Below, one piece after another: positions 9,088-32,281 of a stretch of DNA of 64,000 nt (the stretch's first letter is position 1; every line of letters starts with the position of its first letter). The position numbers and the translations under genes were made by a program. The notes under the pieces are model-generated. The model made no database searches, was not told the DNA's origin, and saw only the letters and a program-made list of their open reading frames with translations. Source of the DNA: Streptomyces sp. BA2 (GTDB lineage Bacteria; Actinomycetota; Actinomycetes; Streptomycetales; Streptomycetaceae); the NCBI RefSeq assembly GCF_009769735.1, contig NZ_WSRO01000002.1, positions 2,294,001 to 2,358,000 on the forward strand, given 5' to 3'.

Positions 9088-9088
9088 A

Positions 9089-9111
9089 CCGCCGCTTCGC
9101 GGCGGGTTTTT
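9089..9111 (+). terminator. Intrinsic terminator-like hairpin between exporter subunits
   Basis: A perfect 7-base stem (CCGCCGC, loop TTC, GCGGCGG) is followed by G and five T residues. It starts two bases after the ATPase stop codon and lies upstream of the permease gene of the same presumed operon, so it may attenuate expression of the permease. Confidence 0.7.
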
Positions 9112-9143
9112 CCCGCCCACCCGCCCGATTGCCCCGTAGCGAG
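9109..9143. repeat. Dispersed 35-base repeat, copy 1
   Basis: The segment beginning TTTCCCGCCCACCCGCCCGA and ending in AGCGAG matches the reverse complement of 16805-16839 at 34 of 35 positions. It directly abuts the terminator hairpin in the exporter operon. Two copies sharing so long an exact match outside homologous genes suggest a dispersed intergenic element. Confidence 0.75.
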
Positions 9144-9172
9144 CGGGTGGGGTCTACCCATGGAGTTCCCCC

Positions 9173-9955
9173 TTGAGCGCCATCCTCTACGACGGCTCCG
9201 CCGTCCTCAGCCGGCATCTGCAGCGCATCAAGCACGCGCCCGCCATCCTCGTCATGACGCAGACGATGCCCATCGTCTTCCTGCTCTTCTTCGGCTACGT
9301 CTTCGGCAGCGCCCTCGCCATGCCCGGCGCCGACTACCGCGCCTTCCTCGTCCCGGGCATGCTCGTCGCGACCGCCGCGAACGGCATCATGACCGGCATG
9401 TTCACCGCCGCCCAGGACTCCCACCGGGGCGTCATGGACCGCTTCCGTACGATGCCCATGAGCCGCTCCGCCGTGCCGCTCGGGCAGGCCGTCGCCGATC
9501 TGCTGACCACCGCCGTGGGGCTCGTGCCGCTGATGCTCGTCGGGCTCGCGATGGGGTGGCGGATCGAGGGCGGCCCGCTCCAAGCCCTGGGCGCCTTCGG
9601 CCTGTTGATGCTCTTCCGGTTCGCGACGACCTGGGTCGGCATCCTGTTCGGGCTCGTTTCGCAGAGCGAGGAGGCGGCGGGACAGCTGGGCAGTGCGACG
9701 TTCATGCTGCCGCTGCTCTCGAACGCGTACATCCCCACCGACGGGCTTCCCGGGTGGCTGCGCACCATCGCCGAGTGGAACCCGATCAGCGGGGTCGCCA
9801 CGGCGGTGCGTGACCTGTGCGGCGACGCGCCCGTGCCGACGGACGCCGCCTGGCCGGTGGCGCACCCCGTGGCCGGGGCGATCCTCTGGTCGCTCGTGCT
9901 GCTCGCCGTGTGCGTGCCGCTCGCCGTCCGCCGGTACACGCACGGAGGACGGTGA
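9173..9955 (+). CDS. ABC-2 type exporter permease, DrrB type
   Basis: The 260-residue protein has about six membrane segments and the ABC-2 signature region (SHRGVMDRFRTMPMSRSAVPLGQ, ADLLTTAVGLVPLMLVG). The last helix is followed by a short basic tail. The start is a TTG at 9173, with GGAG at 9162-9165 giving a good spacing; no ATG or GTG fits. It pairs with the DrrA-type ATPase upstream, but a terminator and a dispersed repeat separate the two genes. It forms the channel of a drug or lipid exporter in the cytoplasmic membrane. Confidence 0.9.
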   Translation: MSAILYDGSAVLSRHLQRIKHAPAILVMTQTMPIVFLLFFGYVFGSALAMPGADYRAFLVPGMLVATAANGIMTGMFTAAQDSHRGVMDRFRTMPMSRSAVPLGQAVADLLTTAVGLVPLMLVGLAMGWRIEGGPLQALGAFGLLMLFRFATTWVGILFGLVSQSEEAAGQLGSATFMLPLLSNAYIPTDGLPGWLRTIAEWNPISGVATAVRDLCGDAPVPTDAAWPVAHPVAGAILWSLVLLAVCVPLAVRRYTHGGR

Positions 9956-9970
9956 GCGGAGGGCCGCGCC

Positions 9971-11698
9971 TTACTTCTGAGGTGCGAGCTCGGGTCCCAG
10001 CGAGGAGAACTTCTCCTGGGACACCACACGCTTCGGCGGCCAGGTGATGTTCGACGGCGGCCACTTCTGGCCCGTCTTCTTGAGGAACCACGCCGGTGGT
10101 TCGTACATCGGCGGCTCATAGCCGTCCGGCAGCGCGGTCTTCCAACTGACGTCCTTCGTACGCTCCTTGAACTCGTCCTTGACCGCCTTCAGGCGCTCGG
10201 GCTGCGTGATCAGGTCGACCGCGGTCGCCGCGAGGTACTTCGCCGCCGCGATCACCGCGGCCTGGCCGGGAGCCGCCGCCGCGCAGGCGGCGGTGGACCA
10301 GGTGTGCATCTTGGTGCCGATGGGAGCGAGGGCGGCGCCCATCGAGACGGTGGGGACGTTCCAGCTGATGTCGGCGACGTCCGTCGAGCCGCCGCCCATG
10401 AACACCGGGTTGGGCGGGGTCAGTTCACCGATCTTGTCGTGCATGCCCTTCTGCGGCAGACCGAGGGACTCCTGGAGCTCCTTGGCCAACTCATGGGCCT
10501 CGGAGGGGAATCGGGGCGGGCCTATCTCCCGCATGTTCGCGTGCAGGAGTTCGGCGAAGGCCTTGGCCGGGAGCTGGTTCCAGCAGGCCGAGGTGACGCG
10601 GTGGCGGACGGTCGTCTGTGACGCCTTGGCCGCTGCCTCGGAGACCGCGATCACCTTGTCCAGGAGGACCTGGACACGGGCGGGGCTCCCTTCGCGTACG
10701 TAGTACGAGATCTCGGCGATCTCCGGGGTGACGTTCGGGATGTCACCGCCGTTGTTGATCACCCAGTGCAGTCGGCCGCTCGGCGCGAGGTTCTCCTCGC
10801 GCAGGAACTCCGACATCGTCGCCATCATCACGGCGGCGTCGAGCGCGGACTTGTTGCCGAGCGGGGTGCCGCCGTGGCCTGCCACACCGAGGAAGGTGAA
10901 GGTGACGGCGGTCATCGCCGTGGTGGAGCCCCAGCCGGTCGCGTTGGCCGTCGAGGGGTGCCAGTCGAGGAACGCGTCGAGCCCGTCGTACACGCCCTTG
11001 CTGACGGCGTACGTCTTGCCGATCAGCGCTTCCTCGGCCGTGGAGCCGAAGAACTTCACGGTGACGGGGAGCTTGTGCTTCTTGGCGGCCTGGGCCACGG
11101 CCGCCGCGGCGGCCGCTGCCGCCGTGCCGAGCGCGCTGTGGCCGCAGCCGTGGCCGGGGCCGTAGCTGGGCGCGAAGGGGTCGTGGATGTACTCGCGCGG
11201 ATCGTGGTGGCCCACGCCCTTGTTCTGCGAGAGGCCGGGCAGCGCGTCGTACTCGCCGCTGAAGCCGAGGACCGGGCCGCCCTTGGCGTGCGTGAACGTC
11301 GCGGTGAACGCCGTCGGGAAGCCCGCGGTGCCGAACTTCACGTCGAATCCGGCCTGTTCGAGGAAATCGGCCTCGGCGATGGAGGACTTCCACTCGCGCA
11401 GGGACAGCTCGGCGTTGTCCCAGATCTCGGCGTTCAGGCCGGTGATCCGGTCGTCGTGGGAGGTGATCCAGTCGAGCGCCGCGCGCTTGGCGGGGGTGTC
11501 GGCGGCGAGGCCCTCAGGAGCTTCGTAGGCTGCCGGGCTGTCGTCGGCGCCCGCGGCCATCGCCGGGTCCGCGTCGGCGGTCATGACGCCGGCGGTGACA
11601 CCGGCCGCGCCGAGGAGCTGCATGATGTGGCGGCGGCTCAACGCCGGGCCGCTCGCGGGGAGTGCTTCATGCTCATGCTGATCGTGCAGGTCACACAC
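9971..11698 (-). CDS. Secreted AbgB-like M20 family amidohydrolase with Tat signal
   Basis: The 575-residue protein begins at a GTG (11698) five bases after GGAGGT. An N-terminal twin-arginine signal (LSRRHIMQLLGAAGVTAG) ends near AMAAGADD, so it is exported folded. The mature part has metal-site motifs of the M20D/AbgB group: GEYDALPG, GPGHGCGHSALG, STAEEALIGKT and GGGSTDVADISWNVP. The family cleaves amide bonds, as in p-aminobenzoyl-glutamate, using two metal ions. The C-terminal tail of about 80 residues after AAAKYLAAT is extra. No partner AbgA is nearby. The true substrate is unknown. Confidence 0.85.
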   Translation of the reverse strand: MCDLHDQHEHEALPASGPALSRRHIMQLLGAAGVTAGVMTADADPAMAAGADDSPAAYEAPEGLAADTPAKRAALDWITSHDDRITGLNAEIWDNAELSLREWKSSIAEADFLEQAGFDVKFGTAGFPTAFTATFTHAKGGPVLGFSGEYDALPGLSQNKGVGHHDPREYIHDPFAPSYGPGHGCGHSALGTAAAAAAAAVAQAAKKHKLPVTVKFFGSTAEEALIGKTYAVSKGVYDGLDAFLDWHPSTANATGWGSTTAMTAVTFTFLGVAGHGGTPLGNKSALDAAVMMATMSEFLREENLAPSGRLHWVINNGGDIPNVTPEIAEISYYVREGSPARVQVLLDKVIAVSEAAAKASQTTVRHRVTSACWNQLPAKAFAELLHANMREIGPPRFPSEAHELAKELQESLGLPQKGMHDKIGELTPPNPVFMGGGSTDVADISWNVPTVSMGAALAPIGTKMHTWSTAACAAAAPGQAAVIAAAKYLAATAVDLITQPERLKAVKDEFKERTKDVSWKTALPDGYEPPMYEPPAWFLKKTGQKWPPSNITWPPKRVVSQEKFSSLGPELAPQK

Positions 11699-11898
11699 GC
11701 GCACCTCCGGGGGTGAGGTTGGGTGTATCAGCCAATCGACCAGCCACATTGGGGCCGGAAAGTTGCGGCGTCAACAGGTGTGCGTGACAAGGGTGTTACT
11801 CGGGGTGCTTGATGAGTGACGTGTGCGGAGTGGGAAGGGGCGGGTGGGTGGGAGCAAATCCGCCGCTGAGCGGCGGCCGAACCCCCGACCACCCGTGG

Positions 11899-12165
11899 TC
11901 AGCGACCCCCAAAGAGCGACCGACGCAGCCTGCGCAAGGGAGCGAAGAGGGAAACCCTCCGCACACGTGCACCGCGGCCACTGTGGTCATGCGCGCCCCG
12001 TGAGGTCAGCTCACGCATCAGCAACGTCGCTTCCGCCGTCTCACGCTGCGGAACGGCGGGGCCGCCCAGCACTGCGAGATGGCGGTCGAGACGCGAGCTG
12101 GTCGCGCTGCTCCCGCAGGTGATCGCAGGGACACGCGCCCTGCTGCGCACCGTTATCTGTTCCAT
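11899..12165 (-). CDS. Small conserved hypothetical protein (88 aa)
   Basis: The reading frame starts at an ATG (12165) preceded at proper distance by GGGGAG. The product begins MEQITVRSRARVPAITCG, contains a polar middle part with LDRHLAVLGGPAVP and ETAEATLLMRELTSR, and ends with a basic, arginine-rich tail (APLRRLRRSLFGGR). I recall similar small proteins in other Streptomyces but know no function. It has no membrane segment or signal. The lone cysteine and the basic tail hint at nucleic-acid or membrane-surface contact. It stands alone between two other minus-strand genes. Confidence 0.55.
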   Translation of the reverse strand: MEQITVRSRARVPAITCGSSATSSRLDRHLAVLGGPAVPQRETAEATLLMRELTSRGAHDHSGRGARVRRVSLFAPLRRLRRSLFGGR

Positions 12166-12281
12166 GTCACTCCCCACCCGTACGAGGGCACCCGGCCCAG
12201 GGCAGGTTAACCCTATCGCCCCGCCACGACACTCGTGTATCCCGGTCACAGGATTCACCTACCCCGTAAGGAGGTTGACGA

Positions 12282-13085
12282 TTACTCTCCGAATACAACT
12301 GATTCCAGGGCGAGTTGGACAAGAGGGGCAGAAGTGGGCCTCTCTGAGCCACCGTCGGGTTCGACGGTCACGGCCAGTGACGCGGCGGACGCGCTCAGGC
12401 CCGTGGCGATCACGGGCGTTTCGCCGTCGAGCAGGCCCAGGGAACGGGGCGCCGAGGCGGGCCGCAGCAGCCACAGTTGGTGCGCACGGCCCTCGGGCGG
12501 CGCCGCGAGCCCCGTGACGCTCACCACGGCGCGCCGCCTGGACTCCGACGCCACGACGTTGATGCCGCGCCCCCAAGTTTCCCTCTCCCCGCTCGCGCGG
12601 GCGTCCGGAGCGGCCAGGACGTGGGCGATCTCACGTGCTTCGGCGCGCTCTCGCTCCAGTCGGCCGTCGGAACGGGCCAGCTGGACGGCGAGGATCGCGC
12701 ACGCGGTCATCGCGAGGGCGGTGAAGGCGCCGACGAGGCCGACGGGAACGCCGACGGGAACAAGGAGCGCGCGGGTGCGAGGGGGCGCGCTCGGAGCGAC
12801 GGGCGCCCGCTGGGGCGGCTCCTGTTCCGTCGCGCGTACGGCGTTCAGCACCCGCTCGCGCAGGGCGGGCGGAGGAGGGGCCGCCGTCGCTCCCGCCAGA
12901 CGTACCGTGCCCTCGCCCAGCTCCCTGGTCTCCGTACGGCAGCGTGCGCAGCGGGCCAGATGCCGTTCGAAGCGGCGCAGTTCGCGGGGGTCGAGGGCGT
13001 CCAGGGCGTAGGGGACGGCCAGGGAGTGGACGCGTCGCCAGGGCCGCGGTCGCCCGGCGGCGACCCTCTCGAAGCCCCCGCTCAT
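12282..13085 (-). CDS. RskA-type zinc anti-sigma factor, membrane anchored
   Basis: The 267-residue protein has an N-terminal anti-sigma zinc-binding region (HSLAVPYALDALDPRELRRF, then RHLARCARC), a transmembrane helix around VGAFTALAMTACAILAV, and an extracytoplasmic RskA domain containing GRAHQLWLLRP and SLAVTVEPDGGSERPT. It starts at an ATG overlapping the sigma factor stop (ATGA), so the two are translationally coupled. By family rule it holds the cognate sigma factor at the membrane until proteolysis releases it. It ends at a TAA (12282). Confidence 0.9.
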   Translation of the reverse strand: MSGGFERVAAGRPRPWRRVHSLAVPYALDALDPRELRRFERHLARCARCRTETRELGEGTVRLAGATAAPPPPALRERVLNAVRATEQEPPQRAPVAPSAPPRTRALLVPVGVPVGLVGAFTALAMTACAILAVQLARSDGRLERERAEAREIAHVLAAPDARASGERETWGRGINVVASESRRRAVVSVTGLAAPPEGRAHQLWLLRPASAPRSLGLLDGETPVIATGLSASAASLAVTVEPDGGSERPTSAPLVQLALESVVFGE

Positions 13086-20837: not shown

Positions 20838-21071
20838 GGAACCTCCCTTAGCAGGATTTCTGCCTCGACTGTGGTACCACTCCCCCACGGCCGCCGGTAG
20901 TGTTCATGTCAATGAGTTCTTCTGCAATTCCCTTGCCCGCACAGGGAGTTCCCTTACGGTTCAAGGGTCTGACGGCGAACATCTCCACACTCCCTCCGCA
21001 TCTTGACGGGCCGCCGTCGACTGCGCGACATTGAAGCCCGGCATCCGGCGCTTCGGGGGGCAAAGTCGCCA

Positions 21072-21503
21072 ATGCAGACCATCAGGATCAAGTCACCGTC
21101 ATCAGACACCGGGCGAGAGCCCCACGACCGGCCTGGCCGTCACGAAGACGCGCTGCCCCTGCTCGCGGGCACGGCTGTGGCGGTGGGCGCGGTCGGCGCG
21201 ATGCTCGCGCTCACGGACATCGATTCGCCGCTGCGCGCCCCGTTCACCCTGTTCTTCCTGCTGGCGGCGCCCGGCGGAGCAATTGGCGCCGCTCTCAGGG
21301 GACTTGATCCATGGGGCCGGATCATTGCTTCCGTTTCCGGGTCCTTCGCGGTCAACCTGTTGGTGGCGCAGGCGATGCTCGCCCTCCACATGTGGTCGGT
21401 ACGCGGCGGGGTCGCCGCCATCACCGTGATCGGCTCGCTCATCTATCTGCTGGTACTGGCGCGGCGGCTGCGACGCCGTGCCCCGACGAGGCGGACCTCC
21501 TGA
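21072..21503 (+). CDS. Small integral membrane protein, probable first gene of the exopolysaccharide cluster
   Basis: This protein of about 143 residues has four predicted helices (LPLLAGTAVAVGAVGAMLAL, FTLFFLLAAPGGAIGAAL, SGSFAVNLLVAQAMLALHM and GVAAITVIGSLIYLLVLA) and a basic C-terminus. I do not recognise a named family. The ATG at 21072 gives a short polar head before helix 1; a longer upstream frame exists but looks non-coding. The next gene begins about one base after its stop, so it is coupled to the CelD-like acetyltransferase, and a role in the same surface polymer pathway is inferred. Confidence 0.7.
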   Translation: MQTIRIKSPSSDTGREPHDRPGRHEDALPLLAGTAVAVGAVGAMLALTDIDSPLRAPFTLFFLLAAPGGAIGAALRGLDPWGRIIASVSGSFAVNLLVAQAMLALHMWSVRGGVAAITVIGSLIYLLVLARRLRRRAPTRRTS

Positions 21504-21504
21504 C

Positions 21505-22605
21505 GTGGACATCACCGTGCACCGCCCTGGAGAACTCACCGCTGCGGACCGGGCGGCCTGGACAGCGCTGCAGTCCAAGGCCCATCTCCACGGCTCGCCG
21601 GAGCTGGCCAATCCTTTCCTCTCCCCGGAGTTCACCCTCGCGGTGGGCCACTGGCGGCGCGGAGTGCGGATCGCGGTCGTACGCGAAGGCGGCGAGCCCG
21701 CGGCCTTCTTCCCGTTCCAGAGATCCATCACCGGCGTCGGCCGGGCCATCGGCCTCGGCGTCTCCGACTGCCAGGGCCTGGTGCACCGGCCCGGCTTCAC
21801 GTGGGACGCACGAGAGCTGTTACGGGCCTGCGGGCTCGCGATGTACGAGTTCGACCATCTGACCAACGGCCAGGAGCCGTTCGAGGCGGGCGCCTCCGGC
21901 TCCTTCGCCTCCCCCGTCATGGACATCGACCAGGGGTACGAGGCGTATCTCGGCCAGCTCAGGGCGAAGTCACCGAAGTTCACCCGCACGACGCTCTCCA
22001 AGGTGCGCAGGCTCGAGCGCGACCACGACACCGTGCGCTACGTGCACGACGAGCGCGACCCCGCGGTCCTTCGCACCCTGATGGAGTGGAAGTCGGCCCA
22101 GTACCGCAGGACGGGCCGCAGCGACCGCTTCGCGTCCACGTGGATCAACCAGCTCGTCCGGCAGCTCTTCCACACCAGGTCCGATCAGTTCGCCGGCCTG
22201 CTCTCCGTGCTCTACGCCGACGAGGTGCCCGTCGCCGCGCACTTCGGGCTGCGCTCCGAACGGGTCTTCGCCCAGTGGTTCCCTGCGTACGACCCGGCGT
22301 ACGCCAAGTACTCGCCCGGCCTGATCCTGCATCTGCGCATGGCCGAGGCGGCCGCCGCCGACGGCATCGCGTATCTCGATCTCGGGCGGGGCCAGAAGCA
22401 GTACAAGGACTCCCTGAAGACACGCGAACTCACCGTGTCCGAGGGGTGGGTGGCTCTGCGCCATCCGGCAGCGATCGGTCACCGGGCGCGGCGCGCTCCG
22501 GTCAGGGCGCTGCGCAACACGGTCTTGTCACGGCCGGAACTCTTTGAACCGGCCGACAAGCTGCTGAAACGCATGGGCCAAATCCGATCAAGAAAGAACG
22601 AATAA
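21505..22605 (+). CDS. CelD/BcsL-like GNAT acetyltransferase of the exopolysaccharide cluster
   Basis: The protein is about 366 residues and starts at a GTG one base after the previous stop. Two tandem GNAT halves are seen; the second contains GLLSVLYADEVPVAAHFGLRSERVFAQWFPAYDP and YSPGLILHLRMAEAAAADGIAYLDLGRGQKQYKDSLK, typical of acetyltransferases linked to cellulose and other exopolysaccharide operons. It probably acylates sugars or lipid-linked intermediates. Codon 106 (21820) is TTA, so translation should depend on the bldA leucyl-tRNA. The exact start is uncertain because no strong ribosome site is visible. Confidence 0.82.
   Translation: MDITVHRPGELTAADRAAWTALQSKAHLHGSPELANPFLSPEFTLAVGHWRRGVRIAVVREGGEPAAFFPFQRSITGVGRAIGLGVSDCQGLVHRPGFTWDARELLRACGLAMYEFDHLTNGQEPFEAGASGSFASPVMDIDQGYEAYLGQLRAKSPKFTRTTLSKVRRLERDHDTVRYVHDERDPAVLRTLMEWKSAQYRRTGRSDRFASTWINQLVRQLFHTRSDQFAGLLSVLYADEVPVAAHFGLRSERVFAQWFPAYDPAYAKYSPGLILHLRMAEAAAADGIAYLDLGRGQKQYKDSLKTRELTVSEGWVALRHPAAIGHRARRAPVRALRNTVLSRPELFEPADKLLKRMGQIRSRKNE
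21820..21822 (+). promoter_or_regulatory. TTA leucine codon (bldA-dependent) in the CelD-like gene
   Basis: The in-frame codon 106 is TTA. TTA is decoded only by the developmental tRNA encoded by bldA in Streptomyces and is rare in this window. Confidence 0.8.
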
Positions 22606-22984: not shown

Positions 22985-23818
22985 ATGACTTCTTTTGTGC
23001 GCCCTGCCACCGAGCCGGGCCAAGATCCGTTAAACAAGCCGACGCTGTCCGGCAACTACCGGCCGATTTCCTCGCACTTGGCGATCACACCGCCGGTGAG
23101 TGTCGTGATTCCCGCGATGAATGAGGCGGAGAATCTTCCCTACGTCTTCAAGACATTGCCCGAATGGATCCACGAGGTCGTGCTCGTGGACGGCAATTCC
23201 ACCGATGACACGGTGGCCGTCGCGCGGGAACTGTGGCCGGACGTGAAGGTCGTCCGCCAGCTCGGCAAGGGCAAGGGTGACGCCCTGATCACCGGATTCG
23301 AGGCGTGCACCGGCGACATCATCGTGATGGTCGACGCGGACGGCTCCGCCGACGGTCACGAGATCGTCAGCTATGTCTCCGCCCTGGTCTCGGGCGCGGA
23401 CTTCGCCAAGGGCTCGCGGTTCGCCAACGGCGGTGCCACGGACGACATGACGCCGATCCGCAAGCTCGGCAACCACGTCCTGTGCTCCGTCGTGAACGCC
23501 AAGTTCGGCGCCCGCTACACCGACCTCTGCTACGGCTACAACGCCTTCTGGCGGCACTGCCTCGACAAGATAGAGCTCGACTGCACGGGCTTCGAGGTGG
23601 AGACCCTGATGAACATCCGGGTGGTCAAGGCCGGGCTCAAGGTGCAGGAGATCCCCAGCCACGAGTACCTCCGCATCCACGGCGTCAGCAACCTCAGGGC
23701 CGTACGCGACGGTCTGCGCGTCCTGAAGGTGATCCTCACGGAGCGTTCCAACCGCCGCGGGAAGCGCCGCAGCACCCGTGGGGTGCCCTTCCGCACGCGT
23801 CAGGGAGAGGTGTCTTGA
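22985..23818 (+). CDS. Family 2 glycosyltransferase, polyprenyl-phosphate sugar transferase type
   Basis: The 277-residue protein has a GT-A fold start VSVVIPAMNEAENLPYVF, nucleotide-binding block VLVDGNSTDDTVAVA, and metal-binding DADGSADGHE, with GSRFANGG and TDLCYGYNAFWR as in dolichol-phosphate-mannose synthase-like enzymes. No membrane helix is present. Codon 16 (23030) is TTA, so it should be bldA-dependent. It ends by overlapping the next glycosyltransferase (TTGA at 23815-23818). It probably charges a lipid carrier with the first sugar of a surface polymer. Confidence 0.9.
   Translation: MTSFVRPATEPGQDPLNKPTLSGNYRPISSHLAITPPVSVVIPAMNEAENLPYVFKTLPEWIHEVVLVDGNSTDDTVAVARELWPDVKVVRQLGKGKGDALITGFEACTGDIIVMVDADGSADGHEIVSYVSALVSGADFAKGSRFANGGATDDMTPIRKLGNHVLCSVVNAKFGARYTDLCYGYNAFWRHCLDKIELDCTGFEVETLMNIRVVKAGLKVQEIPSHEYLRIHGVSNLRAVRDGLRVLKVILTERSNRRGKRRSTRGVPFRTRQGEVS
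23030..23032 (+). promoter_or_regulatory. TTA leucine codon (bldA-dependent) in the first GT2 gene
   Basis: Codon 16 of the glycosyltransferase is TTA, in the context Asp-Pro-Leu-Asn. It is the second TTA-containing gene of the cluster. Confidence 0.82.
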
Positions 23819-24846
23819 GCGGTTCCGGACACCACGGGGGTAGCACGGTGGCGGGCATCTCCGTCGTCATCTGCGTCTACACCGAGGACCGCTGGGAGGA
23901 CATCCTCGCGGCGGTCGCCTCGGTGCGGGCGCAGTCCCTGGCGGCACTCGAGACGCTTCTCGTGGTGGACCACAACGCCTCGCTCCTCGACCGCCTTTCC
24001 AAGGAGTACAAGGAGACCGAAGGGGTGCGGGTGCTCGCGAACGCGGGCCCCCGCGGCCTCTCGGCGGGCCGCAACACCGGGATCGCCGCATCCGGCGGCG
24101 AGATCATCGCGTTCCTCGACGACGACGCCGTCGCGGAGCGGGACTGGCTGCGCCACTTCGCCGAGGGGTACGCCGACCCGAAGGTCTTCGCGGTGGGCGG
24201 GCGCACCATGCCGATCTGGGAGTCACGGCGCAGGCCCGCCTGGTTCCCCGAGGAGTTCGACTGGGTCGTCGGCTGTACGTACAAGGGGCTGCCCGAGGGG
24301 CGGGTCCGCGTGCGCAACGTCCTGGGCGGCAACGCCTCCTTCCGTCGCAGCGCGTTCGAGGCGGCGGGCGGCTTCGCGACCGGCATCGGGCGCGACGGCG
24401 ACAAGCGTCCCCTTGGCTGCGAGGAGACGGAGCTGTGCATCCGTCTCACCCGCGCGAGGCCGGACGCGATCCTGCTCATCGACGACCGCGCGGTGATCCA
24501 CCACCGCGTCCCCGCGGCACGGGAGCGCTTCCAGTACTTCCGCGCACGGACGTACGCGGAGGGCCTCTCCAAGGCGCTCGTGGCGCGAAGTGTCGGTGCG
24601 GACAAAGGGCTTGAGTCCGAGCGCCGGTATGCCACGCGTGTCCTGCCGGCCGGTGTCGGGCGCGGTCTGCGTGACGCGCTGCTCGCGCGTCCGGGCGGCG
24701 CGGGCCGCGCGGGCGCCATCGTGGCGGGCGTGGTCACCGCGGCCGGGGGGTACGTGCTCGGGAGTGTCCGCGCGCGCAGGGGAGGCGCCACGTTCTCGGT
24801 CGTGGAGATCGAGACGGATGCGGACGGTGAGGGGGCTGCGGCATGA
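23815..24846 (+). CDS. Family 2 glycosyltransferase (rhamnosyl/galactosyl-transferase type)
   Basis: The 343-residue protein begins at a TTG that overlaps the previous stop, with GGAGAGG just upstream; a GTG at 23848 is an alternative. The GT-A motifs are ISVVICVYTEDRWEDI, LLVVDHNASLLDRL, AGRNTGIAASGGEIIAFLDDDAV (the DDD metal site) and RVLGGNASF-type NVLGGNASFRRSAFEAAGGF with CEETELCIRL for acceptor binding. A weak C-terminal helix (AIVAGVVTAAGGYVLGSV) could associate with the membrane. It belongs to the exopolysaccharide operon and extends a sugar chain. Confidence 0.9.
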   Translation: MSGSGHHGGSTVAGISVVICVYTEDRWEDILAAVASVRAQSLAALETLLVVDHNASLLDRLSKEYKETEGVRVLANAGPRGLSAGRNTGIAASGGEIIAFLDDDAVAERDWLRHFAEGYADPKVFAVGGRTMPIWESRRRPAWFPEEFDWVVGCTYKGLPEGRVRVRNVLGGNASFRRSAFEAAGGFATGIGRDGDKRPLGCEETELCIRLTRARPDAILLIDDRAVIHHRVPAARERFQYFRARTYAEGLSKALVARSVGADKGLESERRYATRVLPAGVGRGLRDALLARPGGAGRAGAIVAGVVTAAGGYVLGSVRARRGGATFSVVEIETDADGEGAAA

Positions 24847-24881
24847 GCACGGCACCGACCGGCCGAGGAGGGCCGTCATGA
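24843..24881 (+). CDS. 12-codon mini reading frame coupling GT2 and deacetylase genes
   Basis: ATG at 24843 overlaps the preceding stop (ATGA) and has GAGGGGG seven bases upstream. It reads 12 codons (M-S-T-A-P-T-G-R-G-G-P-S) and stops at a TGA that overlaps the deacetylase ATG (ATGA at 24878-24881). It also contains the GAGGAGGG site for that ATG. It looks like a coupling frame; it may simply be chance. Confidence 0.35.
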   Translation: MSTAPTGRGGPS

Positions 24882-25678
24882 ACGCTCCTGTGCCGATACT
24901 CATGTACCACTCGATCGCGCATGAACCGGCTCTGGAGACACGGGAGTTGTCCGTGTCTCCAGGGGCGTTCACCGAGCAGCTCGAACTGCTCGGCGAGCGC
25001 GGGTTCACGCCACTGAGCACGGCCGGGCTCGCCGCGATCTGGCGTACTCCCGGCCGCGCCCTGCCGGCCAGGCCCGTCCTGATCACCTTCGACGACGGCT
25101 ATGAAGGCGTGCACCGGCACGCGCTGCCCGTGCTCGCCGAGCACGGCTTCGTGTCGACGCTCTTCGTCTCCACGGGCTGGCTGCGCGGAGCGCACGACAC
25201 CGGGGGCGCCCTCGACCTGATGCTCGACTGGGGCCAGGTGCGCGAACTGGCCGCGGCGGGCACGGAGATCGGCGGGCACAGCCACACGCACCCGCAGCTC
25301 GACCAGCTGGACGACGACGACCTCTGGTTTGAACTCCTTCGCTGTAGAGAGATCGTCACCGAAGAACTCGGCACCCGGCCGGTCTCCTTCGCCTACCCCT
25401 ACGGCTATTCCAGCCGCCGGGTGCGCCGAACGGTGCGCGGCGCCGGATTCGCCCAGTCGCTCGCGGTCGGCAACGCCCTCGCACGGCGTACGCAGGGGCC
25501 GTACGCCCTGCAGCGGGTGACCGTGCGCCGCTCCACCGGCATCGAGGAGTTCGAACGGCTCGTGGAGGGCCGTTCGATCGCCCGCAACTTCGCAAGGGAC
25601 CGTGCCCACACCAAGGGGTACGCCGTGGTCCGCAGAGCCCGACAGGCCCGCCGGAAGGCAACTCGTACCCGTGTCTGA
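24878..25678 (+). CDS. Polysaccharide deacetylase (CE4)
   Basis: The 266-residue protein carries the CE4 catalytic motifs: VLITFDDGYEG (catalytic D72, metal D73), the zinc motif HSHTHPQLDQL (H134 and H138), and FAYPYGYSS. It begins MNAPVPILMYHSIAH, as usual in single-domain deacetylases. No signal or membrane segment is seen, so it may act on lipid-linked intermediates at the inner face or be exported in an unusual way. GAGGAGGG precedes the start. The stop overlaps the next gene's GTG. Within the cluster it would remove N-acetyl groups from the polymer. Confidence 0.92.
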   Translation: MNAPVPILMYHSIAHEPALETRELSVSPGAFTEQLELLGERGFTPLSTAGLAAIWRTPGRALPARPVLITFDDGYEGVHRHALPVLAEHGFVSTLFVSTGWLRGAHDTGGALDLMLDWGQVRELAAAGTEIGGHSHTHPQLDQLDDDDLWFELLRCREIVTEELGTRPVSFAYPYGYSSRRVRRTVRGAGFAQSLAVGNALARRTQGPYALQRVTVRRSTGIEEFERLVEGRSIARNFARDRAHTKGYAVVRRARQARRKATRTRV

Positions 25679-28600
25679 CACGTCGACCGCCCAGGCAGAC
25701 GTCTCTGGGACTCCGAGCACCGAACAGCGGCCGCCGTCCGGCAAGTCGGGCAGGCCGCGCAGAATGCGCATGCCCGGCAGGGGTGGCGGTGGTGGTGGGA
25801 GCCCGTTGTTCCGCAACGCCTATGCACTGATGCTGAACACCGGCATCTCCGGCGTGCTCGGCGTCGGCTTCTGGCTGGCCGCCGCTCGGTACTACTCCGA
25901 GTCGGCGGTCGGCCAGGGCTCGGCGGCGATCGCCGCCATGAAGCTCCTCGCGGGGCTCACCGCCCTCACCCTGACGGGTGCCCTCGCCCGCTACATACCG
26001 GTAGCGGGACGCGCCACGGGCAAGCTCATCTTCCGTACGTACGCGGCCAGTTCGGTGGTCGTGGCGTTCGCCGCGCTGATCTTCCTGTTCACGCTCGACC
26101 TGTGGGGACCCTCGTACAAGTTCCTGCACGGACCGCTGCACGGCCTCGGCTTCATCGCCGCGGTCATCGCCTGGTCGCTGCTCACCCTCCAGGACGGGGT
26201 GCTCACGGGGCTGCGCAACGCACTGTGGGTACCGGTCGGCAACACCATCTTCTCGGTCGTCAAGCTGGGGCTGCTCATCGCGGTGGCCGCGGCGATCCCG
26301 ACGGCGGGCGTGTTCGTGTCGTGGGTCGCCGCGATCGCCCTGTCGGTCATCCCGCTCGGCTGGCTGGTGTTCCGGCGCCTCGTGCCGCGGCACGTGAAGG
26401 CCACCCAGGACAAGACGCAGCCGCCGACGCTGCGCGAGATGGGCCGCTTCCTGGCCGGCGACTACACCGGCTCGCTCTTCTCGCTCGCCGTGGTCTATCT
26501 CGTACCGGTGATCGTCGCCTCGCAGGTCAGCTCGGTCGACAACGCGTACTTCTACATCACCACCACGATCGGCGGCACGGTCAATCTGCTCGCCATCAAC
26601 ATGGGCGCCTCGCTGACCGTCGAGGGCGCGCACGACCCGGCGCGGCTCGCGGCGAACACCCGGGCCGCGCTGCGCCGCATGGCGCGCATCATGCTGCCGG
26701 TGTGCGGTCTGCTCTTCATCGGGGCGCCGTTCATCCTGCGGGTCTTCGGCCAGGGGTACGCGGACGCGGCGACGCCGCTGCTTCGCTGGTTCGCGGTGGG
26801 CGCGGCGCTGCGGGTCGTCATGGAGACGTACTTCGCGGTGCAGCGCGCGCAGAGCCGTACGTCCGGGATCGCCTGGATGCAGGGACTCTTGTGCGCCATG
26901 GTGCTCGGCCTGACGCTGCTTCTGCTGCCGCGGATGGGGCTCACGGGGGCGGGTGTCGCCGAGATCTGCAGCCTCACGGTGATCGTGGCGATCGCGGCGC
27001 CGAAGCTGTACCGGGTGGCGCGGGGGGCTGCGCCGTCGGACGCCGGCGGGGCGCCGGACGGCGATCTCGCGGACCTGGGGACGCCCGAGACGCCGCCCGC
27101 GCCCGCGGCGGACGCGGCGGGTCAGAAGAAGGAGCGGCACGGGCCCGCCTGGGCACTGCGCGAGTCGCTCGACTCGGACACGCTGCAACTGGCGGTGCGG
27201 CCCGACTTCGACCATCCGGAGCGCAGGCCCGACGTGCGTCCGGGGCCGGGAACGCCCGCGTCCGGGGCACCGGCTTTCGGGACACCGGCTTTCGGGACAC
27301 CGGCTTTCGGGGCACCGGCTTTCGGGAAGGCCGCGGGCACGGGGAACAAGGGGGACGACATGCCGGACACGGAGGACTCGGAGGTCACGGCGCACCGGCC
27401 GACCTGGGCGCTGAGAACACCGGTCAAACCGCGCGAACCGGCGGCTTCGTCGCCGATGCCGCCTTCGGTGTCGTCGGCCGTCACCGCGCCCGCCGAGGAG
27501 CCCGCCACCACCCCGGGCGCGGCGGAGACACCGCCCGAGCCCGTCGTCGCGCCCGGACCACTCCCCCGCCGCCGCGCCGTCTTCATGGCGCTGTTCCTCG
27601 CCTTGGCGCTCGCCCTCTACTGGCTGCCCACCGTGGGCATCACCGAGGCCGATCTGGACGAGATGGGCGGGCTCGGGCTCATCTCGATCCTGCCCGCGCC
27701 GACCCTGCTCGGCGCCGCGCTGCTCGTCGTCGTCTTCGCCTCGCTGCTCTGGCTGGAACGGCCGCACAAGGCTTTGCTCCTGACGACGCTGCTCACCACG
27801 GTGGTGTGTCTGCACGCACTGCCGGCCGTCCTTGAGGACGTGCCGCGGTTCGCGACGGCCTGGCAGCACCTGGGCTTCATGGAGTACATCGACAGGACCG
27901 GCTCCGCGGTGCCCGACCTGGACGCGCGCTGGAGCTGGCCCGGGTTCTTCGCGGCGGCCACGTTCGTGGCGAAGGCGTGCGGCGTCTCGGACATGACCGA
28001 GGTGATCCGCTGGTGGCCGCTGGCCATGCAACTGCTCTACCTGGCCCCGATGTTCCTGCTCGTGCGCTCCATGCGGGCGTCCTGGCGCGCCAAGTGGGCC
28101 GGCCTGTGGATCTCCGCGCTGAGCGGCTGGGTCGGCCAGGACTACTTCTCCCCGCAGGGTTTCACGTACCTGCTCTATCTGGTGTTCGTCGCGGTGCTCC
28201 TCGTGTGGTTCCGCGCGCCGCACGTGCTGTGGGCCAAGCGGCGCCCGGGAGAGCTGGAGGTCGAACCCGCCGACCGGCGTCAGCGCGCGGTCCTGCTCGT
28301 CGTCCTGATCGCCCTGTTCGCGGCGACCGTCCCCGCGCACCAGCTCACACCGTTCGTGATGCTCGGCGTTCTGGCCGCGCTCGTCCTGGTGGGCCGCTCG
28401 GAGTTGCGCGGCCTGCCGATCCTCTTCGCGGTCCTCGTCGCCGTCTGGGTGGGCTTCCTCGCGGAGCCGTACTGGTCGGGGCACTTCGACGAGCTGTTCG
28501 GCGGAATCGGCGGCGTCGGCGGCAACGTGTCGTCGTCGGTGTCCGGCCGGATCGAGGGCGGCAGTTCGACCCACCAACTCGTCCTGTACGCACGCGTCGC

Positions 28601-29573
28601 GCTGGCCGGCGGTGTCATGGCGTTCGCCTGCTGGGGCTGGTGGCGGCGGCGCGACCACAAGTACACGGAACGCTCGCTGCTCGTCCTGACCTTCGTCCCG
28701 TTCCTGGGCTTCGGCATGCAGTCGTACGGCGGCGAGATGGCCCTGCGTGTCTTCATGTTCGCGCTGCCCGGCGCCGCGCTCCTCGCCGGGCTCGCGTTCT
28801 TCCCGCGGGCGGGCATCACCGCGAAGGAGCGGGACCGCGACAAGGTGAGCCTGGCGCCGCTCGCCGCGCTGATGGCGGGGCTCGTCCTGATGGGCGGCTT
28901 CCTGGTGGCGCGCTGGGGCAACGAACCCTTCGAGCGGACCCGGGCCGGCGAGGTCGCCGCGATGGAGTACGTGTACGAGCACGACGACCCGACGGTACGG
29001 CTCCTCTGGATGAGCGACGACACGCTCAACAACGTGACGCCCGCGATGCCTTGGGGCACGCGCGACATGGAGAAGGTGCAGTACGTCCCGACCCTCGCCC
29101 CTGCCGACCCGGTCCTGGTCTCCAGCCTGGTGAAGGCGCTCAAGGACGCGGGCCCCAACTCGTATCTGATGATCAACAAGAGTCAGACGGTCTATCTCCA
29201 GATGGACGTGGGCTACCCGAAGTCCTGGGATTCCCGGCTGATCACGAACCTCGACAACCGCCAGGAGCTGAAGAAGGTCCTCACGAACGACGACGCGACC
29301 CTCTACACGCTGCGCAAGCAGCCGAACGGCGAGGTCGAGAAGGCCGACCCGGGCCCGATCGGGCCGCAGGTGACCTGGACTCCCTGGTCAGTGATCGGCG
29401 CGCTCGCGGCGATCGCCCTGGTCCTGCTGCTCGTCACCCGTGAGGTCGTGCGGGTGGCGGTGGAGCCGAGCGTGCGGCAACTGCGCTGGCTGCAGAGCAG
29501 CTTCTGGTTCTCGCTGCCGCTGCTCGCGGTGCTGCTCGCCTCGCTGATCCAGCGGTTCCTGACGATGGCGTGA
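25671..29573 (+). CDS. Fusion of MVF/Wzx-type flippase and GT-C/polymerase-like membrane protein
   Basis: This 1300-residue protein starts at a GTG overlapping the deacetylase stop. Residues about 50-450 form a multi-helix flippase of the polysaccharide biosynthesis (Wzx/MVF) type (LFRNAYALMLNTGISGVLGVGFWLAAARYY, then FLAGDYTGSLFSLAVVYLVPVI). A charged, proline-rich cytoplasmic linker (about 450-635) contains four 5-residue repeats of APAFG/TPAFG. Residues about 636-1300 are a second polytopic domain with a large outside loop (PAHQLTPFVML, FSPQGFTYLLY), reminiscent of GT-C glycosyltransferases or polymerases. Such flippase-polymerase joining in one chain is unusual. It is the core of the exopolysaccharide cluster. 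Confidence 0.82.
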   Translation: MSDTSTAQADVSGTPSTEQRPPSGKSGRPRRMRMPGRGGGGGGSPLFRNAYALMLNTGISGVLGVGFWLAAARYYSESAVGQGSAAIAAMKLLAGLTALTLTGALARYIPVAGRATGKLIFRTYAASSVVVAFAALIFLFTLDLWGPSYKFLHGPLHGLGFIAAVIAWSLLTLQDGVLTGLRNALWVPVGNTIFSVVKLGLLIAVAAAIPTAGVFVSWVAAIALSVIPLGWLVFRRLVPRHVKATQDKTQPPTLREMGRFLAGDYTGSLFSLAVVYLVPVIVASQVSSVDNAYFYITTTIGGTVNLLAINMGASLTVEGAHDPARLAANTRAALRRMARIMLPVCGLLFIGAPFILRVFGQGYADAATPLLRWFAVGAALRVVMETYFAVQRAQSRTSGIAWMQGLLCAMVLGLTLLLLPRMGLTGAGVAEICSLTVIVAIAAPKLYRVARGAAPSDAGGAPDGDLADLGTPETPPAPAADAAGQKKERHGPAWALRESLDSDTLQLAVRPDFDHPERRPDVRPGPGTPASGAPAFGTPAFGTPAFGAPAFGKAAGTGNKGDDMPDTEDSEVTAHRPTWALRTPVKPREPAASSPMPPSVSSAVTAPAEEPATTPGAAETPPEPVVAPGPLPRRRAVFMALFLALALALYWLPTVGITEADLDEMGGLGLISILPAPTLLGAALLVVVFASLLWLERPHKALLLTTLLTTVVCLHALPAVLEDVPRFATAWQHLGFMEYIDRTGSAVPDLDARWSWPGFFAAATFVAKACGVSDMTEVIRWWPLAMQLLYLAPMFLLVRSMRASWRAKWAGLWISALSGWVGQDYFSPQGFTYLLYLVFVAVLLVWFRAPHVLWAKRRPGELEVEPADRRQRAVLLVVLIALFAATVPAHQLTPFVMLGVLAALVLVGRSELRGLPILFAVLVAVWVGFLAEPYWSGHFDELFGGIGGVGGNVSSSVSGRIEGGSSTHQLVLYARVALAGGVMAFACWGWWRRRDHKYTERSLLVLTFVPFLGFGMQSYGGEMALRVFMFALPGAALLAGLAFFPRAGITAKERDRDKVSLAPLAALMAGLVLMGGFLVARWGNEPFERTRAGEVAAMEYVYEHDDPTVRLLWMSDDTLNNVTPAMPWGTRDMEKVQYVPTLAPADPVLVSSLVKALKDAGPNSYLMINKSQTVYLQMDVGYPKSWDSRLITNLDNRQELKKVLTNDDATLYTLRKQPNGEVEKADPGPIGPQVTWTPWSVIGALAAIALVLLLVTREVVRVAVEPSVRQLRWLQSSFWFSLPLLAVLLASLIQRFLTMA
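27267..27326 (+). repeat. Four tandem 15-base units in the flippase fusion linker
   Basis: Units of rCACCGGCTTTCGGG (r is G or A) occur four times without gaps and in frame, encoding A/T-P-A-F-G. They lie in the cytoplasmic linker between the two membrane halves. Slippage could vary the copy number without breaking the frame. Confidence 0.9.
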
Positions 29574-29600: not shown

Positions 29601-31025
29601 TCACCGCTTCAGCCACTTCACCTCGTACCCCTTCATCCCGAACCGCTTCCCGTCGACCTTCGCGTCGATCGAGCGGTCGAGGGTGTTCACGACGAGCACG
29701 GTCTCCTTGTCGGCGAGGACGCGTACGTTCGGTACGTCGTCGGCGGCGACGGAGACCTTCTCGTACTCCGTGCCGGGCGGGAACGCGTCGTTGAACCGGG
29801 AGAGCATCTTCAGCATCGGCAACGCCGTGCCGCCGTCGTCGAGTTGGGTGGACCGCCACAGGCAGCCCGCGCAGCTCTCGCCCCTCTTCTGCGGGTTCCA
29901 GTAGAAGCCGCTGCTCGCACCGCCGCGTGCCATCGCCATCAGCCCGGTGGCGTGGACGGCGACGCGGTGCGGCTCGGACCAGTCGTCGCGGTCGTCGTCG
30001 CTGTCGCCCGGTTCCACGTAGTACTCGGCCCACCACAGCGGCAGGTCCCCGGTGCGCTCCCGCACCCATTTACCGACGGCCGTGAGCTTCTCGGTGGCCT
30101 TGAACTCGTCGGGGATCATCTCGTCGTCGACGGTGTAGCTGGAACCGTCCACGACGACGAAGTCCGCGCCCGCCTTGTTCTTGTTCCAGTAGTCGAAGGC
30201 GTCGAGGACCCGCTGGTCCATGCGGCCCCAGGGGCCCTTGACCTCCGTCGAGGCGCCCTCGGTCTGGCGCGGGTCGACGCTGTCCATGACGAGGTAGGGG
30301 CCGCCGACCATGATGTCCTTGTTGACCTTCTTGAGCTCCTTGTGGACCAGGTTGTAGAGCTCGGTGTAGCCCTCGTAGTCCCAGCGGGCCTTCTCGTTGT
30401 TCCAGAAGCCCTTGAACTCGTTCCAGACGATGAAGTGCCGTACGTCCGGATAGCGTTTGGCGACGGTCGCCGCGAGCTTGGCGTAGTCCTTGTAGTGGGC
30501 GCGTTCCGGAGCGGTCTCCAGGGCCTGCTGGCTCCAGTCGGTGTTGTCCGCGCCGGGCTTACCGCCCTTCATCCAGTCCGGGGCGCAGCACAGGGTGACG
30601 ACCGGCGTGCCGTCGGTGGCGCGGATGAAGTCCATCCGGCTGTCCATCTCCGTGAAGTCGTAACGCCCCTTGACCGGCTCGGGGTTGCTCGCGCCCCAGC
30701 CCATGATGTGCTGGATCTGCGGCAGCGGGCGCGGCTGGCCCGCGAGCAGCTCCTCGGCGCGCCGCGTGGCGGCCTCGCCGCCCTCGTCCGCGCTGTACTG
30801 GGTGTGGGTGAAGCCCCAGCCGACGGCCGGCTTCACCTTGCCGGGCGGGACCGCGGGGGTGCCGTGCACCTTGTCGCCGTCGCGCGTGGTGCCTTCGGAG
30901 CCCGTGCCGTCATCGGGGAGCGTGGTGACGACGGTCAGGATCAGTGCCAGTGCGGCCAGAGCAACGCCGAGCAACGCGGCGAGCCGCCACCGCTGTGCCC
31001 CCGAATTCCACCCATGACGTCCCAT
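29601..31025 (-). CDS. Membrane-anchored GH39-like glycoside hydrolase
   Basis: The 474-residue protein has an N-terminal anchor helix (LAALLGVALAALALILTVVTT, residues about 15-35) followed by a TIM-barrel hydrolase. FIVWNEFKGFWN supplies the likely acid/base E203 and LPLWWAEYYVEPG the likely nucleophile E334, in the positions expected for clan A family 39 (xylosidase/iduronidase). A C-terminal beta domain closes the protein. It faces the exopolysaccharide operon convergently, 27 bases from it, and could trim or release the polymer. The start is uncertain: ATG 31025 lacks a clear ribosome site, and ATG 31076 is the alternative. Confidence 0.8.
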   Translation of the reverse strand: MGRHGWNSGAQRWRLAALLGVALAALALILTVVTTLPDDGTGSEGTTRDGDKVHGTPAVPPGKVKPAVGWGFTHTQYSADEGGEAATRRAEELLAGQPRPLPQIQHIMGWGASNPEPVKGRYDFTEMDSRMDFIRATDGTPVVTLCCAPDWMKGGKPGADNTDWSQQALETAPERAHYKDYAKLAATVAKRYPDVRHFIVWNEFKGFWNNEKARWDYEGYTELYNLVHKELKKVNKDIMVGGPYLVMDSVDPRQTEGASTEVKGPWGRMDQRVLDAFDYWNKNKAGADFVVVDGSSYTVDDEMIPDEFKATEKLTAVGKWVRERTGDLPLWWAEYYVEPGDSDDDRDDWSEPHRVAVHATGLMAMARGGASSGFYWNPQKRGESCAGCLWRSTQLDDGGTALPMLKMLSRFNDAFPPGTEYEKVSVAADDVPNVRVLADKETVLVVNTLDRSIDAKVDGKRFGMKGYEVKWLKR

Positions 31026-31186
31026 CAAGGGCAAGACTATCCAGGGAAGTTGGCGGTGACACAGGTTCCGCATCACGGGTTCGCGGCTTTCCGGCGGCTT
31101 CGGCGGCCCTGACCCACCTGAACGGAGTACGGCCGAGTACGTAAACCTGGATGCACGAGGGCACTTGTGTGCCGGATCATGGCGGC

Positions 31187-32281
31187 ATGTCTGCGAACCC
31201 TCAGGACACCCTGCCGATCCGGCTCAACGTCGACGACAGCGACTCTCCGTCGGATGTCGTGGACGCCCTCTTCCTCGGCCGCTTCGCCACCGGGGAGCAG
31301 CCCTTCTCGCACAGCTCCAACATCGACCGCGTCAAGTCCGGCTCCACGCTGCTCCCGCCCGGTGCGACGGTGCTGCGCGCGGCCCGCGACGACGACCGCA
31401 GCGCGACGCTGGCCGAGGGCGAAGGCTGGACTCTCCTGATCTCGCGCTGGAACCGCGGCGCGGACGTCACCGTGACGGCGACGAGCGCCGACCTCGCGGA
31501 GAAGGTTCTGAAGCAGGCGACGGACGGCGCGCAGGACGAGCCGGAGCCCCAGCCGGACAACGTGACCATGGGGTTCTGGTACGTGTCCCCCAGGCGCGGC
31601 CCGCACCGCACCACACGGCAGATCGCCGCCGGTACGTGGGATGAGGTGCGGGAGAACTACACCGCGCCGGTCGCCGGGGCCATGGACTCCCTGATGAAGA
31701 CGGGCCCCGAGGACATCTCGGGCCGCCTCCTGCTCCTGCACGGCCCGCCGGGCACGGGCAAGACGTCGGCGCTGCGGACGCTCGCGCGGTCCTGGCGTGA
31801 CTGGTGCCAGGTGGACTGTGTCCTGGACCCGGAGCGGCTGTTCAGCGACGTCGGCTACTTGATGGACATCGCGATCGGTGAGGACGACGGCACGGCGAAG
31901 GGCCGCTGGAGGCTGCTGCTCCTGGAGGACTGCGACGAGCTGATCCGGGGAGAGGCGAAGCACACCGCGGGGCAGGCGTTGTCGCGTTTGCTGAACCTGA
32001 CGGACGGTCTCCTTGGCCAGGGCCGCAACGTCCTGGTCGGCGTCACGACGAACGAGGACCTGGAGCGGCTCCACCCGGCGGTGGTCCGGCCGGGCCGGTG
32101 CCTCGCCCGGATCGAGGTCGGAAGCCTGACCCGCGCCGAGTCGATCGACTGGCTCGGCACGGAGGAGGGCGTTCCCCGCGAGGGCGCGACGCTGGCGGAG
32201 CTGTACGCCTTGCGTCGCGGAACCTCCCCTACGTCGGTCCCGGACCCCCGGGGCGGGGCGGATGCGGGGCTGTACCTGTAG
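31187..32281 (+). CDS. AAA ATPase with DUF5925 N-terminal domain
   Basis: This protein of about 364 residues has an N-terminal domain of about 170 residues (IRLNVDDSDSPSDVVDALFLGRFATGEQPF) of the DUF5925 type, then an AAA module: Walker A LLLLHGPPGTGKTSALRTL, Walker B LLLLEDCDELI, sensor LVGVTTNEDLERLHPAVVRPGR (arginine finger). The role is unknown. The ATG at 31187 is taken as start; an ATG at 31151 adds 12 residues. A hairpin with CGTTCCGC/GCGGAACG arms lies at about 32300-32320 downstream. Confidence 0.85.
   Translation: MSANPQDTLPIRLNVDDSDSPSDVVDALFLGRFATGEQPFSHSSNIDRVKSGSTLLPPGATVLRAARDDDRSATLAEGEGWTLLISRWNRGADVTVTATSADLAEKVLKQATDGAQDEPEPQPDNVTMGFWYVSPRRGPHRTTRQIAAGTWDEVRENYTAPVAGAMDSLMKTGPEDISGRLLLLHGPPGTGKTSALRTLARSWRDWCQVDCVLDPERLFSDVGYLMDIAIGEDDGTAKGRWRLLLLEDCDELIRGEAKHTAGQALSRLLNLTDGLLGQGRNVLVGVTTNEDLERLHPAVVRPGRCLARIEVGSLTRAESIDWLGTEEGVPREGATLAELYALRRGTSPTSVPDPRGGADAGLYL

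Follow-up and report, generated by a model that had tools for sequence, protein, structure and literature searches.

The locus considered here lies in a window of 64 kb (the whole stretch of DNA that was analysed, from the 10.04 Mb genome of Streptomyces sp. BA2) and centers on one gene for a membrane protein in which a flippase of the MOP family and a glycosyltransferase of the GT-C type are predicted to be fused. The open reading frame (ORF) from 25671 to 29573 on the forward strand runs for 1300 codons without interruption, and the modelled membrane modules stand on either side of a linker of ~170 residues, in agreement with the initial annotation, which had described a single two-module membrane protein of this length. 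The GTG start codon sits within the 3' end of an upstream deacetylase gene, with which the fusion gene shares 8 bases; overlaps of this size are of a type known from coupled translation. The full-length protein had zero matches in scans of Pfam and NCBIfam, and sequence searches of the PDB with the fusion protein and with profiles of both modules returned chance-level matches only (E-values of 1 or worse). Its closest identified relatives are from Streptomyces, and relatives are often annotated only as 'lipopolysaccharide biosynthesis protein'; these bacteria are not known to produce lipopolysaccharide. The gene and its parts are as follows.

25671..29573, forward strand: fused flippase-GT-C gene, 1300 residues, GTG start at 25671, stop at 29573
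25803..27035, forward strand: predicted N-terminal MOP/Wzx-type flippase module, residues 45-455
27036..27566, forward strand: inter-module linker, residues 456-632
27141..27260, forward strand: best-conserved linker stretch, GPaWAlr..LDSDTL.LaV..DFdH.ERRPDVRPGPgTP, residues 491-530 (120-sequence alignment)
27393..27416, forward strand: second conserved linker motif, HRPTWALR, residues 575-582 (120-sequence alignment)
27567..29570, forward strand: predicted C-terminal GT-C module, residues 633-1300
28140..28142, forward strand: candidate active-site residue Asp824, part of Q-D-Y-x3-Q in the segment joining core helices 3 and 4; position acidic in 49 of 52 relatives
28734..28748, forward strand: Glu1022 and Arg1026 of YGGE...R, both invariant in 52 of 52 relatives, candidate active-site or lipid-phosphate residues
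28944..29312, forward strand: small alpha/beta domain after the final core helix, residues ~1092-1214 (DSSP of the model)

The possibility that two genes had been joined by a sequencing artefact, which the initial annotation had named as fatal to its reading, is ruled out by the relatives of the gene. A single ORF spans both halves in 75 of the 80 nearest loci (the best 80 of 557 relatives, so that conservation figures describe near relatives), all of them Streptomyces; in the other five the ORF runs into the start of a contig. Moreover, the same frame covers both halves in 40 of 42 genomes of the genus that carry a near-full-length C-half match at 63% identity or more, and in the remaining two the halves are on different contigs. 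It should be noted that the 42 exclude genomes G407, G380 (broken), and G358 (decayed), and that the 40 include G311, whose locus is cut by a contig end. An error of assembly or sequencing is thus extremely improbable as the source of the joined frame. Among 121 genomes of the genus, a C-half match was found in 61, every one of which also had an N-half match, while one genome had a weak N-half match alone and 59 had neither half. Relatives of the C-half were detected in 52 of 296 genomes of the class and, in a profile search, in 12 of 296 genomes of the phylum.

The N-terminal half is supported as a MOP flippase at the level of predicted fold. In the AlphaFold2 model, this part has 12 helical spans, as counted from the helix list, arranged as the two six-helix bundles of the MOP fold, and its fold matches are WzxE and MurJ. 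Polysacc_synt (PF01943) was matched by 8 of 16 members of alignment A2 (best E-value of 3.9e-7), with no match for the window protein itself. These observations bear out the earlier assignment of this half to the Wzx/MVF type.

For the C-terminal half, a GT-C core fold is likewise supported by a model (AlphaFold2, built from 40 sequences; pLDDT 76, pTM 0.81). The match to the GT-C core begins at about model residue 82 and is preceded by two additional helices; behind the core, the model places the small alpha/beta domain, probably on the extracytoplasmic side, and then two further helices. Foldseek E-values were weak (best 1.7e-3, to ArnT), and nine of the top ten entries were GT-C enzymes or oligosaccharyltransferase (OST) complexes, the tenth being a translocon chain that we take to be STT3. 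The VIA list gave a clearer picture, with 39 of ranks 1 to 40 occupied by GT-C transferases or OST-containing complexes (OST/STT3, AglB, PglB, PMT, ArnT, ALG9/12, DPY19, AftA/B/D, and Emb) and one by the translocon entry that Foldseek had found. STT3, AglB, and PglB lead this list; Z falls from 20.0 (422 residues, 5.9 Å) to 10.9 over these ranks, six of which are below 13, and rank 41 is an unrelated protein at Z 6.6. A transporter or otherwise unrelated fold, the other outcome that would have told against the initial annotation, is unsupported, given that unrelated transporters appear in the Foldseek list only from rank 11 onward at probabilities of 0.15 or less and in the VIA list only under the GT-C rows. 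A Pfam scan of 20 members of alignment A1 gave no credible family and no match to the STT3 family model. The earlier description of this half as GT-C-like or polymerase-like therefore survives in its first part only: a label of polymerase, or Wzy, is not supported, since the strong structural rows are lipid-carrier-dependent transferases and no Wzy-like chain occurs among the listed Foldseek and VIA rows, in which no dedicated test for Wzy was made.

Candidate active-site residues were sought in 52 near-full-length GT-C relatives (P0122 removed as a duplicate; L146, L148, and L158, with short or interrupted model coverage, and nine truncated pieces described below left out). Trp756, Trp820, Gln823, Tyr825, Gln829, His890, Tyr1019, Glu1022, and Arg1026 are identical in 52 of 52. 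GT-C enzymes are expected to carry an acidic residue in the first extracytoplasmic loop and another in the loop joining core helices 3 and 4. The first is partly conserved here, with Asp751 in 39 of 52 and an acidic residue at position 738 in 36 of 52, in a loop whose assignment is itself predicted. In the helix 3-4 loop, Asp824, putatively equivalent to the residue of known enzymes, is a candidate active-site residue, and the invariant Glu1022 and Arg1026 may act at the active site or on the lipid phosphate.

The linker would lie on the cytoplasmic side, given the even count of flippase helices. In an alignment of the best 120 fused relatives among the matches listed, again near relatives, the mean frequency of the commonest residue is 0.91 in the flippase, 0.88 in the GT-C module, and 0.51 in the linker, which ranges from 105 to 248 residues in length. 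Within this otherwise variable segment, residues 462-470, 491-530, and 575-582 are conserved. The repeat that the initial annotation had ascribed to the linker is real, in the form of PAFG units at residues ~530-555 of the window protein. As a conserved element of the linker it is rejected, with average gaps among the 120 relatives of 32% at residues 530-539 and 70-84% at residues 540-559; the elements that are conserved are the other short motifs.

The fusion gene belongs to a conserved cluster. The two GT2 glycosyltransferases, the deacetylase, and the acyltransferase that had been reported as its neighbors are all present, together with a GH39-like gene and a gene for a small membrane protein. 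In the rows below, counts out of 72 or 78 refer to genes found anywhere in the fetched stretch of a nearest locus; of these loci, 72 have a full upstream flank and 78 more than 2 kb downstream.

21003..21503, forward strand: small membrane protein, start codon uncertain; found by iterative hidden Markov model search in 102 of 125 loci
21478..22605, forward strand: GNAT/FemAB-like acyltransferase (PF13480); 50 of 72 fused loci
22985..23818, forward strand: GT2a, AglJ-like, start ATG 22985; NCBIfam AglJ 140.8 bits, cut-off 325; 72 of 72 loci
23848..24846, forward strand: GT2b, AglG-like, start GTG 23848 or TTG 23815; NCBIfam AglG 226.1 bits, cut-off 440; 72 of 72 loci
24878..25678, forward strand: polysaccharide deacetylase (PF01522), start ATG 24878; 72 of 72 loci
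29601..31076, reverse strand: GH39-like glycoside hydrolase, convergent (PF01229, 3e-8); 78 of 78 loci

AglJ and AglG are the best NCBIfam matches of GT2a and GT2b, respectively, with both scores under the curated cut-offs. From its similarity to AglJ at this level, GT2a is probably a polyprenyl-phosphate sugar synthase, and an AglJ-like GT2a, the flippase, and the GT-C module are encoded together in all 72 loci with a full upstream flank. Eight GT2 proteins from relatives were closest to AglJ in four cases, to AglG in three, and to MftF in one (paralogous locus L053); the paralogous loci examined in Streptomyces yielded no AglJ-like GT2. Beside the GH39-like gene, the window holds a DUF5925/AAA ATPase gene (31151-32281, forward strand), which is also near the cluster in L039, L139, and L146-L148. 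An identification of the cluster with SCO2588-2592 of S. coelicolor was rejected, because PMC6629963 describes SCO2589-2591 as teichoic-acid and amidase genes.

The small membrane protein is present in 71 of the 72 fused loci with a full upstream flank, and matches were found in 71 of the 80 nearest and 31 of 45 further loci (e.g., L048:8297-8842, L050:9202-9684, and L157:7670-8059). It was not found by the iterative search in 14 of the 45, including the fused loci L046 and L054. In 18 loci its gene adjoins a separate GT-C gene, and the protein is a candidate partner subunit of the GT-C module. Members show a weak resemblance to DUF6541 or DUF1616 proteins, limited to the first part of these: among 26 scanned with Pfam, two matched the start of DUF6541 (best 6.8e-5), two DUF1616 (best 0.0038), one CcmF_C, and one DUF3433, at least some of them below the gathering cut-offs, with no match for the window's own protein. 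These results leave a GtrA identity unsupported.

The cluster bears on two further readings of the C-half. If it were an en bloc polymerase, a Wzy analogue joining repeat units into an exopolysaccharide, one chain would do the jobs of both Wzx and Wzy. Deacetylase, acyltransferase, and glycoside hydrolase neighbors of this sort occur in actinomycete exopolysaccharide clusters (PMC13390465). Among 27 proteins scanned with Pfam, no Wzy-like family was found, which also counts in favor of this reading, and no initiating phosphoglycosyltransferase. The strong fold rows, which are of the OST, ArnT, PMT, Emb, Aft, and ALG types, weigh against a polymerase, which we regard as unlikely. Alternatively, the C-half could act on exported proteins as an oligosaccharyltransferase, in the manner of AglB in haloarchaea or PglB in bacteria. 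The STT3, AglB, and PglB entries at the head of the structural rows fit this proposal, as do the AglJ- and AglG-like neighbors, and in Haloferax AglJ and AglG are reported to load a common dolichol phosphate in turn, before flipping and transfer (PMC3871713). However, the STT3 family model was not matched by sequence, and the GH39-like enzyme and deacetylase suggest a polysaccharide product; we regard such an oligosaccharyltransferase as improbable.

Taken as a whole, the results obtained by computation (both predicted folds, conservation of the cluster, and recurrence of the fused state) are best explained by a single-chain flippase and glycosyltransferase acting in a transmembrane glycosylation system, to which we assign a probability of about 0.62. 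In such a system, GT2a would load a first sugar onto polyprenyl phosphate on the cytoplasmic side and GT2b would attach a second, giving a monophosphate-linked disaccharide as the putative donor, while the deacetylase and acyltransferase may modify the lipid-linked saccharide. The N-terminal half would then carry it to the outer leaflet, where the C-terminal half, outside the cell, would move the saccharide from the lipid to an acceptor, which might be a cell-wall polymer, an exopolysaccharide, or a protein. The small membrane protein is a possible partner of the C-terminal half, and trimming or release of the product may fall to the GH39-like enzyme. Flipping followed by transfer within a single chain, and a direct hand-over of the saccharide from one half to the other, are steps that we infer.

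Relatives in which the two modules are not fused bear on the last of these steps. Beyond the nearest 80, 45 further loci were fetched, in which ORFs were picked by codon composition, a crude procedure that missed some known genes (e.g., the GT-C gene of L149). In 15 of the 45, flippase and GT-C are encoded by different genes (L042, L043, L045, L048, L050, L055-L058, L152, L153, L156, L157, L172, and L173). Separate adjacent genes in other actinobacteria, which the initial annotation had proposed to look for as support for the fusion, occur in eight of these (L042, L043, L045, L055, L152, L157, L172, and L173), with the flippase first in six. The fetched stretches of L044, L150, L155, L175, and L176 showed no flippase, which may reflect absence or a miss in ORF picking, and neither module was found by the same crude picking in L154 and L174. 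Fusion outside the main group of Streptomyces was seen in L046, L049, and L054. In L054, an AglG-like GT2 separates the two modules within a single ORF of 1311 residues (9009-12944, reverse strand). The fused state appears at about four separate places in both module trees, with four label changes in the flippase tree and five in the GT-C tree (one of them the broken copy L147; L047 and L128, at contig edges, were left unlabelled). Gain and loss of fusion are not separable in these trees, in which L046, L049, and L054 are outliers on long branches.

Truncated and decayed forms were also recovered. Nine paralogous flippases (L052, L053, L140-L143, L145, L149, and L151) end in a GT-C-like piece truncated to about 200 residues, which lacks Tyr825, Gln829, His890, Tyr1019, Glu1022, and Arg1026 in all nine; a complete GT-C gene is present separately in eight of these loci, and the ninth has a GT-C match. 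The truncated tail may have persisted from an older fusion as a docking element. In genome G455, a flippase of 451 residues stands alone at the same site (L139:9471-10826, forward strand), directly before the GH39-like gene and with no GT-C half, and another GT-C gene lies on a different contig; P0271 (445 residues, 191 member sequences) is a stand-alone flippase of this kind. Conversely, L146:7286-9142 (reverse strand; genome G358) is a GT-C half without a flippase that opens with the linker-like motif HRPAWALR and, judging from its sequence, is a decayed relic of the fusion: by eye, it retains Trp820, Asp824, and His890 and has lost Gln823, Tyr825, Gln829, Tyr1019, Glu1022, and Arg1026. The sole flippase match in this genome is a paralogue. 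The decay of a GT-C half without its flippase fits a functional coupling of the halves, as a single case.

Within the single-chain explanation, there is an even chance that fusion fixes only stoichiometry and co-localization, such that the product is released to the outer leaflet and picked up by the GT-C half without channelling. A linker of variable length and mostly poor conservation, relatives that encode the same pair as separate genes, and the flippase-only copy retained in G455 favor this variant, while strong conservation in parts of the linker and the recurrence of the fused state in the trees, with gain and loss not told apart, speak against it. A more elaborate version, in which the GT2 enzymes dock on the conserved linker motifs, the GT-C half receives the charged lipid directly from the flippase, and the small protein serves as a dedicated GT-C subunit, is doubtful when taken jointly. 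If true, it would represent a bacterial Agl-like glycosylation machine housed in one complex, from cytoplasmic assembly to transfer outside, and the separate GT-C enzyme of the paralogous system would dock on the truncated GT-C piece of its flippase. Because flippase and transferase usually occur as separate proteins, the hand-off of sugars from one to the other is hard to study. The natural fusion, common among Streptomyces and accompanied by split, truncated, and decayed versions, offers a ready set of variants for testing it. In addition, a likely role is now available for a large protein without a Pfam or NCBIfam match, and a small uncharacterized protein is flagged as its possible partner.

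A flippase joined to an enzyme is known from MprF, in which flippase and lysyl-phosphatidylglycerol synthase share one chain and the synthase step precedes flipping; its folds and substrates are unrelated to those of the Streptomyces protein. Wzx/Wzy export, as outlined for the imp and wps clusters of Actinoplanes, shares the Wzx-type fold, and wps-3 also has deacetylase and acyltransferase neighbors (PMC13390465). It differs from the system described here in that two membrane steps are fused in Streptomyces, where the 27 Pfam-scanned proteins gave no Wzy-like match or initiating phosphoglycosyltransferase. GtrA/GtrB/Gtr and GtcA-type systems of Gram-negative and Gram-positive bacteria likewise combine a polyprenyl-phosphate-sugar synthase, a flippase, and a GT-C enzyme (PMC7389260; PMC11127046), but as separate proteins with a small GtrA-type flippase, whereas a large MOP flippase and the GT-C module are in the same chain here. 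The haloarchaeal Agl pathway (AglJ, AglG, AglR/Agl15, AglB, and AglS), in which AglJ and then AglG are described as placing sugars successively on a common dolichol phosphate, offers a parallel in its GT2 enzymes, flippase, and membrane transferase (PMC3871713). The archaeal proteins are separate, the Streptomyces GT2 scores fall under the cut-offs, AglR, AglB, and AglS are compared by their place in the pathway, and the protein target that is a feature of Agl is only putative in Streptomyces. Closest in logic is pentofuranosylation in Citrobacter, a three-component system with a polyprenyl-phosphoribose synthase, a MATE-family flippase (ORF14, with a flipping role assigned by bioinformatics), and a GT-C enzyme of family GT136 (PMC11127046). 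Both systems pair a MOP/MATE-type flippase with a GT-C enzyme that uses, or in Streptomyces would use, a polyprenyl-phosphate donor outside the cytoplasm; unlike the separate Citrobacter proteins with their different donor synthase, the Streptomyces system has flippase and GT-C in one chain, along with two GT2 enzymes, a deacetylase, and a small membrane protein. The described three-component systems keep flippase and GT-C separate, while one ORF encodes both in 75 of the 80 nearest loci, and no published description of a single flippase-GT-C chain was found in the open-licence literature searched, including PMC13390465, PMC4973528, PMC11127046, PMC7389260, and PMC3871713. As far as these searches show, a flippase and transferase in one chain is new, within a system whose logic is already known from separate proteins (PMC11127046).
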